A DNA stretch of 63,944 nucleotides, from positions 1 to 63,944 of the forward strand of contig JABHZQ010000002.1 of assembly GCA_018656555.1 (NCBI GenBank), given 5' to 3'. The translations under genes were made by a program, and so were the position numbers. This document shows positions 7,389-17,348 of the stretch, piece after piece. This DNA is from an archaeon. Lineage in GTDB: Archaea > Nanobdellota > Nanobdellia > SCGC-AAA011-G17 > GW2011-AR17. A model generated the notes under the pieces. The model had not been told where the DNA came from, did no database searches, and was given only the letters and a program-made list of their open reading frames with translations. Numbering within the stretch: the first letter of the stretch is position 1; every line of letters starts with the position of its first letter.

Positions 7389-7397
7389 TTTTTAAAT
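7389..7397 (+). promoter_or_regulatory. TATA box of the original tRNA-Arg locus
   Basis: The element tttttaaat is centred about 28 bases upstream of the tRNA 5' fragment that begins at 7421, the spacing expected for an archaeal tRNA promoter. It now drives only the truncated tRNA stub. Confidence 0.5.
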
Positions 7398-7420
7398 GAC
7401 TCTCAGTTTAAGCAGAATAT

Positions 7421-7444
7421 GGACCTGTAGCTCAGTTTGGATAG
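7421..7444 (+). pseudogene. tRNA-Arg 5' fragment (acceptor strand plus D-arm)
   Basis: Twenty-four bases match the first 24 bases of the complete tRNA-Arg at 8473-8496 with two differences (positions 3 and 6 of the acceptor strand, G to A and C to T). The fragment ends inside the D-arm; no anticodon or T-arm follows. The two changes would mispair with the surviving acceptor 3' strand (cgggccc), so it cannot be the working 5' half of the intact gene. It has a promoter-like TATA box at tRNA spacing. Interpreted as the original 5' end of the tRNA gene stranded by insertion of the homing-endonuclease element. Confidence 0.8.
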
Positions 7445-7480: not shown

Positions 7481-8482
7481 ATGCAGATTATTTTTCAAAA
7501 AGAAAAACAAAAAGAATTTTTAACAGAAGCCATCAAACTATCAAAAAGTAAAAATATAAATCAATTCTGCAATTTTTTTAAATTTAATAGAAGAACCTTC
7601 AAAAATTGGCATTATGAAACAAACCATCTCCCTCAACCAATATACAATAAACTCATTACTGCTTTCCCAAAATTAAAAAAATTTAATAAATTTATTTTAG
7701 AAAAAAAAGAAAGTAATTGGGGTCAAAAAAAAGGAGGAAAATCTTCTTACAACAAAATGGTTTTAAAATATGGTGAAGAAGAATTAAAAAATAGACAAAA
7801 AAATGGAGGTAAAAAATCCAAAAGATACAATGAACCACTATCAATCAATATCTACAATAAACAATTCTTAGAGTTTTATGGTGCATTATTAGGAGATGGT
7901 TGGATAAGTATCATAAAAAGTAAAAAAACTAATAAAATTCAATGGATTATAGGTTTTAGTGGACATTCCAAAGATGACAAAAACTACCTATCAAAAAGAA
8001 TAAAAGGAATTTGTAAACCTTTGTTTTCAAGAACAGGATATTTACATTACAAACCAAATACTAATTCAATGGAATTTACATTTGGTCACAAAAAACTATT
8101 GTATTTTCTAAATAATAATTTAAATTTTCCAATAGGACTAAAAAAGAATCTCAAAATAAGCGAAAAATATAACTCTAAATGGGAGAACTATAAATATATT
8201 ATTAGGGGCCTATTTGACACAGACGGAAGCTTATATTTTGATAAAGATCCAAGATACAAAACTCATTATCCAATTCTAGAAATATCAAACAAATCAGATA
8301 TTTTAGTAGAACAAATAAAAAAAATATTAATTTCTCAAAATTTTAGAATTATTAGATATCACAGTGGATTAAGACTAAAAGGTAAAGATCAATTAGAAAG
8401 ATGGTTCAAAAAAATAAAACCAAAAAATAAAAAGCATATATTAAAATATAAGAAGTTCATTTCAAATAACAAGGGCCCGTAG
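7481..8482 (+). CDS. LAGLIDADG homing endonuclease (double motif)
   Basis: A 333-residue single-chain homing endonuclease. The two dodecapeptide motifs are FYGALLGDGWIS (~residues 127-138) and YIIRGLFDTDGSLYF (~243-257), each with the expected catalytic acid (GDG and DTDG). The first ~115 residues are very basic and include a helix-turn-helix-like segment (INQFCNFFKFNRRTFKNW). It is free-standing, not within an intron or intein. The last codons and the TAG stop (8480-8482) are formed by the first ten bases of the intact tRNA-Arg, so gene and tRNA overlap. A TATA-like motif within its last ~15 codons probably drives the tRNA. Its cleavage site is probably the tRNA-Arg D-arm or acceptor region (inference). 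Confidence 0.9.
   Translation: MQIIFQKEKQKEFLTEAIKLSKSKNINQFCNFFKFNRRTFKNWHYETNHLPQPIYNKLITAFPKLKKFNKFILEKKESNWGQKKGGKSSYNKMVLKYGEEELKNRQKNGGKKSKRYNEPLSINIYNKQFLEFYGALLGDGWISIIKSKKTNKIQWIIGFSGHSKDDKNYLSKRIKGICKPLFSRTGYLHYKPNTNSMEFTFGHKKLLYFLNNNLNFPIGLKKNLKISEKYNSKWENYKYIIRGLFDTDGSLYFDKDPRYKTHYPILEISNKSDILVEQIKKILISQNFRIIRYHSGLRLKGKDQLERWFKKIKPKNKKHILKYKKFISNNKGP
8437..8450 (+). promoter_or_regulatory. Putative tRNA-Arg promoter inside endonuclease coding sequence
   Basis: The stretch tatattaaaatata, centred close to 27 bases upstream of the tRNA 5' end at 8473, is a good archaeal TATA candidate and is the only one at the right distance. It lies within the coding sequence of the endonuclease C terminus (residues HILKYK). 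Confidence 0.45.
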
Positions 8483-8504
8483 CTCAGTTTGGATAGAGCA
8501 CTTG

Positions 8505-8521
8505 AAACAAAAGTTGGTGAA
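8505..8521 (+). other. tRNA intron 1 (17 nt, position 30/31, non-canonical)
   Basis: Full bulge-helix-bulge motif: outer helix gag (8496-8498)/ctc (8523-8525), central 4-bp helix cact (8499-8502)/ggtg (8516-8519), 3-base bulges tg^a and aa^c, inner helix aac/gtt with an aaaa loop. Cutting after the second base of each bulge removes exactly 17 bases and joins G30 to C31 of the anticodon stem. Confidence 0.8.
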
Positions 8522-8528
8522 CCTCCTA

Positions 8529-8541
8529 TCCATGTGGAGAG
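8529..8541 (+). other. tRNA intron 2 (13 nt, canonical position 37/38)
   Basis: The central helix ctcc (8523-8526)/ggag (8536-8539) is flanked by bulges ta^t and ag^a, with the anticodon stem cttgc/gcaag as outer helix. The inner part is just a ccatgt loop, so it is a bulge-helix-loop variant. The anticodon stem is complete only after intron 1 has been removed. Confidence 0.8.
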
Positions 8542-8586
8542 AGCAAGGGGTCGTGGGTTCAAATCCCATCGGGCCCGTTTATTACC

Positions 8587-9563: not shown

Positions 9564-11012
9564 ATGATTGCATTCAAAAATAGAGATGTAGTATCAATTA
9601 AAGATTTCTCCCGTGAAGATATTGAATTTATTCTAAAAACAGCCCAAGATATGGAAAAGAATAAAGAACAATACAAAGAATTACTAAAAGGAGAAGTAGT
9701 AACCTTAGTTTTCTATGAATCTAGCACAAGAACAAGACTAAGTACCTATATGGCTGCAAAAAACCTAGGAGCCACAATTCAACCCTTCTTATACAGTGAT
9801 GGAACCTCTGCAATCAAAGGAGAAACACTAAGTGACACAATAACAATGCTAAAAAAATATGGAGCTAGTATTGTTACTATTAGACACCCTTTAGAAGGTT
9901 CTGCACAATGGGCAGCTGATGTTCTAGATGTTCCAGTAATAAACTGTGGAGATGGAGCTCATGAACATCCTACTCAAACACTACTAGATCTTTACACTAT
10001 CCTAAAAAGAAAAGAAAGTCTAGACAATCTAACTATCTCCTTTGTAGGAGACATGAAGTATGGTAGAACTGTACACTCTTTAGCCCTAGCACTAACAAAA
10101 TTCCAAAACATAACTTTCAATTTTATATCTCCAGAAATACTAAAACTACCTCAATACCTAAAAGAATACTTATGGAAAAAAGGAGTTAAATTCATAGAAT
10201 CAACAAACATTAATGATGGAACAAACAGTGATATCTTATACATGACTAGAATACAAGAAGAAAGATTCGGAGATAAAAGAGAATACGAACAAGTTAGAAA
10301 AAGTTTTAGTTTAGAACCTGAACATCTTGTTAATCCCAAAACAGTAGTCATGCATCCTCTACCAAGAAACAAAAAAGCAATTGAAATTAATCCATTAGTA
10401 GATGCACTACCTCAAGCAGGATACATGGAACAAGCTGAAAACGGAGTTTACACTAGAATGGCAATTTTAGCTTTAGTATCAGGAAAAATAGGATCTGTAG
10501 AAACATATATCTCGCCAGAAGAAGAAGAAACTGAATTTGAATTTAAAGAAATAAGCCTAAAAGATAGACCTAAAAAAGAAGGCGGTTACCTTGTTTGGGA
10601 AATGGATTCAGGTACAGCAATAGATCACTTAGAATCAAATACAGCCCCTTTAATCAAAGAGATACTAAAACTACCTAAAGAAACAACCTGTACAATTGGA
10701 GTTAACCTTCCAAGTAAAAAAGGTGATAAAAAAGATATACTAAAAATATGGAACTATCAAGTTAATAATGAACAAATGAGAAAAATAGGTTTATTCGCTC
10801 CAAACGCAACCATTAACTTAATTTCTGAAGACACATTAAGAAAAACAAAAGTCCTTCCTCCAAAAATACTAAAAAATCTTATTTCCTGTGAAAACCCTCA
10901 TTGCATTTCAAATCCTGAAAACTATGAATTTGTTCCCTCTAAATTCTATAGAAATAAAAACAAATTTATCTGTGGATTTTGTGGTAGAGAAAAAACAAAT
11001 AGTTTATTTTAA
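9564..11012 (+). CDS. pyrBI: Aspartate carbamoyltransferase, catalytic-regulatory fusion
   Basis: Second step of de novo pyrimidine synthesis, carbamoyl phosphate plus aspartate to carbamoylaspartate. Residues 1-310 are PyrB: carbamoyl phosphate loop ESSTRTR (~53-59), RHPLEGSAQW (~109-118), GDGAHEHPTQTLLDLY (~131-146) and HPLPR (~265). From ~345 the sequence is PyrI-like: GTAIDHLES (allosteric-domain strand), KKDILKIWNYQ, APNATINLI, then a zinc ribbon of two Cys pairs, CENPHC and CGFC. In most archaea PyrB and PyrI are separate adjacent genes; here one chain carries both. A TATA box (ataaataattataaatt) lies ~30 bases upstream. Confidence 0.93.
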   Translation: MIAFKNRDVVSIKDFSREDIEFILKTAQDMEKNKEQYKELLKGEVVTLVFYESSTRTRLSTYMAAKNLGATIQPFLYSDGTSAIKGETLSDTITMLKKYGASIVTIRHPLEGSAQWAADVLDVPVINCGDGAHEHPTQTLLDLYTILKRKESLDNLTISFVGDMKYGRTVHSLALALTKFQNITFNFISPEILKLPQYLKEYLWKKGVKFIESTNINDGTNSDILYMTRIQEERFGDKREYEQVRKSFSLEPEHLVNPKTVVMHPLPRNKKAIEINPLVDALPQAGYMEQAENGVYTRMAILALVSGKIGSVETYISPEEEETEFEFKEISLKDRPKKEGGYLVWEMDSGTAIDHLESNTAPLIKEILKLPKETTCTIGVNLPSKKGDKKDILKIWNYQVNNEQMRKIGLFAPNATINLISEDTLRKTKVLPPKILKNLISCENPHCISNPENYEFVPSKFYRNKNKFICGFCGREKTNSLF

Positions 11013-14257: not shown

Positions 14258-15142
14258 CTACCCCATAAGAATTCTTTTTCTCTCTTCTATAGTTGTTTTG
14301 GGTTTTAAAATTCCAGTTTTCATCCATACTTGATATCTTGTAATTATTCTCTGATTTGAAAAACCTATTAAATTTAACCATCTTCTTAGATTATAAGGAC
14401 CATCCAAATTTATAAAATTTGTTATATAAGAAAACCCCCTCTTATCTTCCCTAAAATATTCATATTTTGTATTTAAAGTAAATCCCATACCTCTTAAAGC
14501 CCATTCTAAATCTTTTACCAAAGGTTTTGAAGCAAATTGGGCACAAATTCTAGGATAATTATTAGGTTTATCTTTTTTTCTTTTTGTACAAATAAATGTA
14601 AAATCTGAATCAGCAATTCCTCTAATACATGCCTGTAAAAAAAATATATTTTTTCTTATTTCAAAAGGAATTCTTACTGTTTTTGTTTTTCTAGGTTCAA
14701 TACCTAAGGAATTTAAAAAAATTCTAAAGGGTTCTGATTGAAATTGTAAGATATAAGCACCATTGGTTGCCAGATAAGGTCTCGGCAAAATTCCTAAACA
14801 CCTAAAAACTAAATGAGGAAGATATTTATCATAATATTCTTTATCTTCATTTTTATTTCCAGATATTTGTATCCTATAATCCTTTCTCCTATAATTTTTA
14901 TTTATACACCCATCCCCAATAATAGCCCCAATTAATTCAGCTAAATCCTCAGTCAATATAAACCCTTTAGCTAATTTATACTTATAATTTCTTCTACAAT
15001 TAAGAGAACAAAATTTTCCTCTTCCCTCTTTGTGCCTACTTTGTGAAATCTCTATTTGTCGTCTACAAAACAAACAATTTTTCTTAACTTGCTTTTTATT
15101 CCAAGGTATATTCCCTTTCTCAAATCTCCCTTTAAAAATCAT
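14258..15142 (-). CDS. LAGLIDADG homing endonuclease with N-terminal Cys-rich and NUMOD3-like motif
   Basis: A 294-residue homing endonuclease. The N terminus has RFEKGNIPWNKK, like the NUMOD3 DNA-binding motif of mobile endonucleases, followed by a four-Cys zinc-finger pattern CLFC...CSLNC (~24-51). The two LAGLIDADG motifs are LAELIGAIIGDGCI (~65-78) and ACIRGIADSDFTF (~171-183). The gene lies directly upstream of the PIG-L gene in the same direction, its stop 18 bases before that gene's start codon, with the PIG-L Shine-Dalgarno in the gap. The other endonuclease in the window is not closely similar. Target unknown; the adjacent PIG-L HPDDE region is a candidate. Confidence 0.88.
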   Translation of the reverse strand: MIFKGRFEKGNIPWNKKQVKKNCLFCRRQIEISQSRHKEGRGKFCSLNCRRNYKYKLAKGFILTEDLAELIGAIIGDGCINKNYRRKDYRIQISGNKNEDKEYYDKYLPHLVFRCLGILPRPYLATNGAYILQFQSEPFRIFLNSLGIEPRKTKTVRIPFEIRKNIFFLQACIRGIADSDFTFICTKRKKDKPNNYPRICAQFASKPLVKDLEWALRGMGFTLNTKYEYFREDKRGFSYITNFINLDGPYNLRRWLNLIGFSNQRIITRYQVWMKTGILKPKTTIEERKRILMG

Positions 15143-17255: not shown

Positions 17256-17348
17256 TGCACCGGCTGGGATTCGAACCCAGATCTTTGGCTCTCTTCAAAC
17301 CTTGAAGTTCATGGAAGGCCAAAATTCTAGCCATTGAACTACCGGTGC
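17256..17348 (-). tRNA. tRNA-Gly(TCC) with one intron
   Basis: Acceptor gcaccgg pairs with ccggtgc and the discriminator is A (17256); D arm gttc/gaat, T arm ctggg-ttcgaat-cccag. After removing 17291-17311 (21 bases) the anticodon stem is ttggc/gccaa with loop CTTCCAA, so anticodon TCC. The intron sits at canonical position 37/38 in a full bulge-helix-bulge: central helix cttc/gaag, bulges ca^t and ag^a, inner helix gaac/gttt. Mature length 72, no CCA encoded. A TATA box (cctttataaac in plus sense, 17372-17382) lies ~28 bases upstream. Confidence 0.93.

Follow-up and report, generated by a model that had tools for sequence, protein, structure and literature searches.

Archaeal LAGLIDADG homing endonucleases such as I-Tsp061I and I-DmoI are encoded inside introns, and their host introns lie in rRNA genes. 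In yeast, the WHO elements of Torulaspora and Lachancea target FBA1 for homing and bring along an FBA1 end that is resistant (PMC7282813). Their LAGLIDADG gene is a neighbor of an essential host gene and does not lie within it, a displaced fragment of the host gene is left behind, and the elements can form tandem clusters. Freestanding endonucleases such as phage T4 SegB carry out "intronless homing" (PMC2988022) from a position beside tRNA genes, although SegB belongs to the GIY-YIG family, targets a tRNA intergenic region and has no link to tRNA introns. In the Thermoproteales, tRNAs have been described that carry several bulge-helix-bulge (BHB) introns each, at non-canonical sites and with recent gains (Sugahara 2007 and Fujishima 2010, cited in PMC4090602). 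The mechanism by which archaeal tRNA introns are gained and move is described as unknown in PMC4090602.

We analyzed a 63,944-nt stretch of DNA from a DPANN archaeon (hereafter, the window) in which a LAGLIDADG gene overlaps a tRNA-Arg(CCU) gene with two short introns. The layout is that of the WHO elements: the enzyme gene is a separate open reading frame (ORF) beside the host gene, which is of full length but altered, and a displaced fragment of the host gene lies on the enzyme gene's far side. Tandem copies were found in one related genome, and a resistant host allele is predicted to travel with the enzyme gene, as in yeast. Unlike the WHO elements, this locus lies on an archaeal chromosome, relatives of its enzyme are found at many tRNA isoacceptors and on either flank of the tRNA, resistance apparently stems in part from spliced introns, and we saw no intein-like region or zinc finger. 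The protein has the same fold as I-Tsp061I and I-DmoI, but its gene lies outside the introns, which are short and hold no ORF. As in the Thermoproteales tRNAs, there is more than one BHB intron per tRNA at non-canonical sites, with recent gains; this tRNA gene also has an endonuclease gene next to it. By analogy, the tRNA element would work like a WHO element, a likeness of layout and logic. A literature search of open-access papers found no report of an association between LAGLIDADG genes and tRNA genes.

The tRNA-Arg(CCU) gene and its surroundings

The tRNA-Arg(CCU) gene (8473-8577, plus strand) encodes a 105-nt precursor and matches Rfam RF00005 with 49.8 bits. The gene is genuine, and, as the original prediction stated, excising 8505-8521 and 8529-8541 yields a 75-nt tRNA-Arg(CCU) in which every stem is paired; an independent exhaustive enumeration of one- and two-intron solutions also ranked the sites 30/31 and 37/38 at the top. 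ARAGORN missed this gene when run on the window and miscalled it once introns were allowed. Exon 1 (8473-8504, plus strand, as are all parts of the gene) holds positions 1-30, exon 2 (8522-8528) holds positions 31-37 with the anticodon CCU, and exon 3 (8542-8577) holds positions 38-73. Intron 1 (8505-8521; 17 nt, at 30/31) forms the complete BHB motif that had been proposed for it, of hBHBh' form, with the outer helix 22-24/32-34, the central helix CACU/GGUG and the inner helix AAC/GUU. Intron 2 (8529-8541; 13 nt, at 37/38) has outer and central helices and no inner helix, giving a relaxed HBh' motif, and its first bases, UCCA, pair with UGGA of the D-loop. The introns show the archaeal BHB arrangement: a central helix of 4 bp and, at each splice site, a bulge of 3 nt.

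Two further statements of the original prediction did not survive comparison with relatives. A length of 13 nt is not near the lower size limit, introns of 11-14 nt being common in tRNAs among relatives, and double and non-canonical introns, described there as few in DPANN archaea, are common throughout the window's DPANN order. By itself, the two-intron tRNA-Arg(CCU) is ordinary for this order and has precedent. What had been overlooked is the adjoining LAGLIDADG gene and a tRNA remnant, both of which alter what the locus is.

The LAGLIDADG gene (7481-8482, plus strand) encodes a freestanding protein of 333 amino acids with the repeats GALLGDGW and GLFDTDGS and an N-terminal HTH-like domain. 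Its stop codon, TAG, consists of U8-A9-G10 of the tRNA, an overlap of 10 nt. The AlphaFold model of the protein (pLDDT 88.7) had I-Tsp061I as its top solved match in Foldseek, followed by I-DmoI and others, and combines the LAGLIDADG fold with the two motifs. Against Pfam LAGLIDADG_3, the window protein scored slightly under the cut-off, and 16 of the 17 aligned proteins reached E<=0.01. Across 79 enzymes, the catalytic aspartate is conserved in all 79 in repeat 1 and in 77 in repeat 2, the remaining two having glutamate. The gene is not intron-encoded: the ORF ends at tRNA position 10, and the introns measure 17 and 13 nt. Among the matches listed, 24 of 150 copies contain in-frame stops, as might be expected of a cycle of gain, decay and loss.

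On the other side of the enzyme gene, 36 nt ahead of it, the 5' end of tRNA-Arg recurs as a displaced copy (7421-7444, plus strand) that covers positions 1-22 and is identical at 22 of 24 nt; elsewhere in the window, the next best match to this 24-mer was just 17/24. The fragment is preceded by a box-A-like tRNA promoter, TTTTTAAATG (7389-7398, plus strand), and by ATAT, which is the pattern of the tRNA promoters in the window's genome. Similar boxes occur at about -30 before most other tRNAs of this genome, and the intact copy at 8473 is without one. The fragment stops after position 22, not at the 30/31 intron site. In genome G047, by comparison, a tRNA-Ser(GCU) fragment comprises positions 1-29, with 29/30 nt identical, and its end coincides precisely with the site, 29/30, at which the intact tRNA has an intron. 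Clear displaced fragments were present only at these 2 of 88 loci, with weaker anchored ones at a few more. Fragments anchored at a tRNA end occurred at 7/88 loci compared with 9/684 cross-controls (p 0.001), in a test that was a second try after raw local-alignment scores had been only marginal overall (p 0.045). The G047 fragment is flanked by tandem LAGLIDADG genes (locus L224, 1340-2310, minus strand).

The window's genome has four LAGLIDADG copies, three of which precede a tRNA: Arg-CCU, Leu-UAG and Phe-GAA. The latter two tRNAs, both intron-bearing, each have a LAGLIDADG gene directly before them (tRNA-Phe(GAA) in L373 on contig C7 and tRNA-Leu(UAG) in L374 on contig C3). The fourth copy is a second gene of the same family within the window (14258-15142, minus strand; 172 bits to the family profile); no tRNA was detectable alongside it, and it is perhaps a stray or a relic. 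Elsewhere in the window, we observed a tRNA-Gly(UCC) with a 21-nt intron at 37/38 (17256-17348, minus strand), which ARAGORN reads as tRNA-Met, and an aspartate carbamoyltransferase whose regulatory chain (PyrI) and catalytic chain are fused in a single ORF (9564-11012, plus strand).

Enzymes, tRNA genes and introns across the order

Searching the family's 18 genomes at the protein level identified 17 copies in 11 genomes, and all 17 homologues were located at a tRNA gene. Fourteen of the linked tRNAs had modelled BHB introns, one was intronless, and two, read as Met, were too complex for the solver. A profile built from the 17 proteins detected copies in 94 of the 103 genomes of the order. 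We scanned 99 copies from other families, which were the better-scoring profile matches and not a random draw, with a tRNA covariance model. A tRNA lay directly at the 3' end of the ORF in 74 of these 99 copies, many of them overlapping; 56 of the 74 were on the same strand, placing the enzyme on the tRNA's 5' side, and 18 were on the opposite strand, placing it on the 3' side. Whenever a tRNA lay at the 3' end of the ORF, the ORF was oriented toward it. Overlaps of 9, 14, 18 or 23 nt recur because the tRNA supplies the stop codon. By contrast, none of 30 EndA loci used as a control had a tRNA within 1.5 kb (Fisher p 1.5e-14 versus 74/99, with mostly draft assemblies compared and related enzymes as non-independent data points).

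We also considered synteny with Dus as an explanation. Only two of 16 Dus loci have a tRNA within 1.5 kb, namely the window's Arg-CCU and its counterpart in G003, which carries its intron in the D-arm and is separated from Dus by about 0.7 kb. The explanation was rejected on Nanoarchaeota archaeon BS150m-G60 (L034), where Dus has no accompanying tRNA.

In a phylogeny of 79 enzymes, the anticodon of the neighboring tRNA (28 states) requires 33 changes, compared with a mean of 63 and a minimum of 59 in shuffles, whereas host family requires 52, inside the shuffled range (mean 55.6, minimum 50). Since the anticodon is structured on the tree and host family is not, enzyme lineages keep their tRNA while switching hosts. 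The Arg-CCU clade, for example, unites enzymes from the window's genome (G000), G009, G093 and G052, which represent three host families. Sister enzymes were found on opposite flanks of one isoacceptor, both for Ile-UAU (L185 and L219) and for Arg-UCU (L193 and L233), which argues that the target is the tRNA gene itself and not a flank. A candidate recent transfer, the Ala-GGC pair of G032 and G063, was discarded because the DNA similarity extends about 800 nt upstream and there is hence no clean insertion.

Among the 74 linked tRNAs read confidently, by a solver that sometimes misreads multi-intron tRNAs, 54 have an intron, 47 have a non-canonical one, 25 have two introns and 20 have none. 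The position of the introns is related to the side of the enzyme. Introns after position 38 accompany 8 of 15 enzymes on the 3' side versus 2 of 59 on the 5' side (p 1.6e-5); 3'-side enzymes go with 3'-half introns, mostly at 53/54, and 5'-side enzymes with introns in the D-arm and anticodon stem. Within the window's genome, non-canonical introns are present in all three enzyme-linked tRNAs versus 1 of 23 others (p 0.0015), and two nearly complete genomes (G018 and G022) gave 6 of 7 linked tRNAs versus about 15-18 of 58 others (p 0.004-0.008).

The intron content of Arg-CCU is volatile. Across 61 genomes of the order covered by an Arg model and the family's 18 genomes, this tRNA is intronless or has a 37/38 intron only, a D-arm intron or the dual pair, depending on the species. 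The genome with the nearest full-length enzyme (G009) has introns at the same two sites, 30/31 and 37/38, four congeners (G006 and G010-G012) have an intronless Arg-CCU, and so do two of the four members of the Arg-CCU enzyme clade (L229 and L284). Because 20 of the 74 linked tRNAs are intronless, introns are not obligatory and cannot be the sole source of resistance; judging from these sequences, spliced introns would be one route to it, not the only one. Non-canonical introns are also found without an adjoining enzyme gene. One such case is tRNA-Ser(GCU) of the window's genome, whose intron site is enzyme-linked in G002 and G047, and this intron is possibly a relic of enzyme linkage.

EndA is present in exactly one copy in 95 of the 103 genomes, and in two copies in one, and none was found in seven. 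The sole EndA of the window's genome (L001, contig C10, 1474-2007, minus strand) is a single-domain protein of 177 amino acids, nearest in sequence to the Nanoarchaeum catalytic subunit. We discarded a broad-specificity EndA as an explanation for the introns, as this single 177-amino-acid enzyme has no insertion when aligned with M. jannaschii EndA. Despite its small EndA, this genome has non-canonical and relaxed introns, a kind usually tied to broad-specificity EndA.

Order of intron removal

According to the original prediction, the two BHB motifs exclude each other and intron 1 must be removed before intron 2. Folding upheld the order as a matter of naked-RNA thermodynamics, although "forced" is too strong a word for it, and the mutual exclusion follows geometrically for any pair of introns at 30/31 and 37/38. 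In the full precursor, ViennaRNA put the probability of the intron-1 motif at 0.72 (37 °C), with 0.87 at 20 °C and 0.43 at 60 °C; for the intron-2 motif plus its anticodon stem, the value was 7e-8. With intron 2 taken out first, the intron-1 motif fell to a probability of only 0.006. The cause, which the original prediction did not contain, is that UCCA at the beginning of intron 2 (8529-8532) base-pairs, along with U36 and A37, with the D-loop, which gives motif 1 a longer outer helix. With 300 random intron-2 loops, the median probability of the intron-1 motif was 0.003, and 1.7% of the loops attained the real value. Such assistance from intron 2 was seen in most, but not all, other 30/31 and 37/38 pairs. 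After excision of intron 1, the model favored another register over motif 2 (motif-2 probability 0.02).

The intron-1-first order is thus well supported in silico, and intron 1 would most likely be spliced first and intron 2 second. Such an order is not new: in Cyanidioschyzon merolae, introns have been described to leave in a set sequence, the one at 37/38 coming last (Soma et al. 2013, as summarized in PMC3978253). That the order is not fixed, with EndA cutting either intron first in vivo with the aid of proteins or co-transcriptional folding, seems to us unlikely, if with an appreciable chance of being right: the 27-30/40-43 stem can form around intron 1, as can central helix 2, at a constrained minimum of -28.3 versus -37.7 kcal/mol, but the probabilities in the equilibrium ensemble differ by about seven orders of magnitude, and the C. 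merolae order, as given in that summary, also has 37/38 last.

A candidate homing element and its implications

We consider it likely that the locus is a WHO-like freestanding LAGLIDADG homing element that is aimed at a tRNA gene, for which we predict DNA cleavage, and that carries a resistant tRNA allele along. The enzyme encoded at 7481-8482 would recognize the tRNA-Arg(CCU) gene and cut within its 5' half. Repair from the donor copy, by gene conversion, would import the enzyme gene and, along with it, an entire tRNA no longer recognized by the enzyme, and would leave the recipient's own tRNA 5' end with its promoter (7389-7444) stranded upstream. In the resistant allele, BHB introns would interrupt the DNA target; EndA would splice them out in vivo, intron 1 and then intron 2, and the mature tRNA would be unchanged.

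A partial tRNA duplication flanking an insert is a hallmark of integration at tRNA sites, and 7421-7444 is such a duplication. It could be the att remnant of a mobile element that integrates with the tRNA gene as its attachment site, the introns being unrelated. We regard this as improbable: the insert, about 1 kb long, consists of one LAGLIDADG ORF and includes no integrase, introns persist in the intact tRNA at positions that track the side of the enzyme, and sister enzymes use either flank of the same tRNA. The protein might instead be a maturase-like helper that binds the odd precursor, aids EndA on non-canonical introns and stays beside the tRNA it serves. LAGLIDADG maturases exist elsewhere, the fold matches include the bI3 maturase and a bifunctional enzyme that is both endonuclease and maturase, and the genome's only EndA is a short one-domain enzyme. 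Nevertheless, a helper role is quite improbable given that 20 of 74 linked tRNAs have no intron to splice, that many non-canonical introns lack an adjoining gene and that the catalytic aspartates are kept, and it leaves the displaced target fragments unexplained. Finally, tRNAs with two introns have been described from Archaea and are frequent in the order, and the tRNA could be an ordinary one whose adjoining gene is a coincidence; the adjacency in 74/99 copies versus 0/30 in the control and the isoacceptor-specific clades contradict this, making it very hard to credit.

If the locus is a homing element, it supplies, as proposed here, a concrete agent with its target and its means of resistance, along with a preserved trace of the event, across many isoacceptors and most genomes of the order, and it points to selfish DNA cutters as the source of the odd introns in archaeal tRNA genes. 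We lean, by a modest degree, toward a broader reading in which the non-canonical tRNA introns of the order, and perhaps of Archaea at large, are immunity tags against isoacceptor-specific LAGLIDADG homing endonucleases: BHB splicing would hide an essential gene that cannot otherwise change, and homing would spread intron and enzyme together. The enzyme family would form a natural LAGLIDADG panel with predictable tRNA-gene targets.
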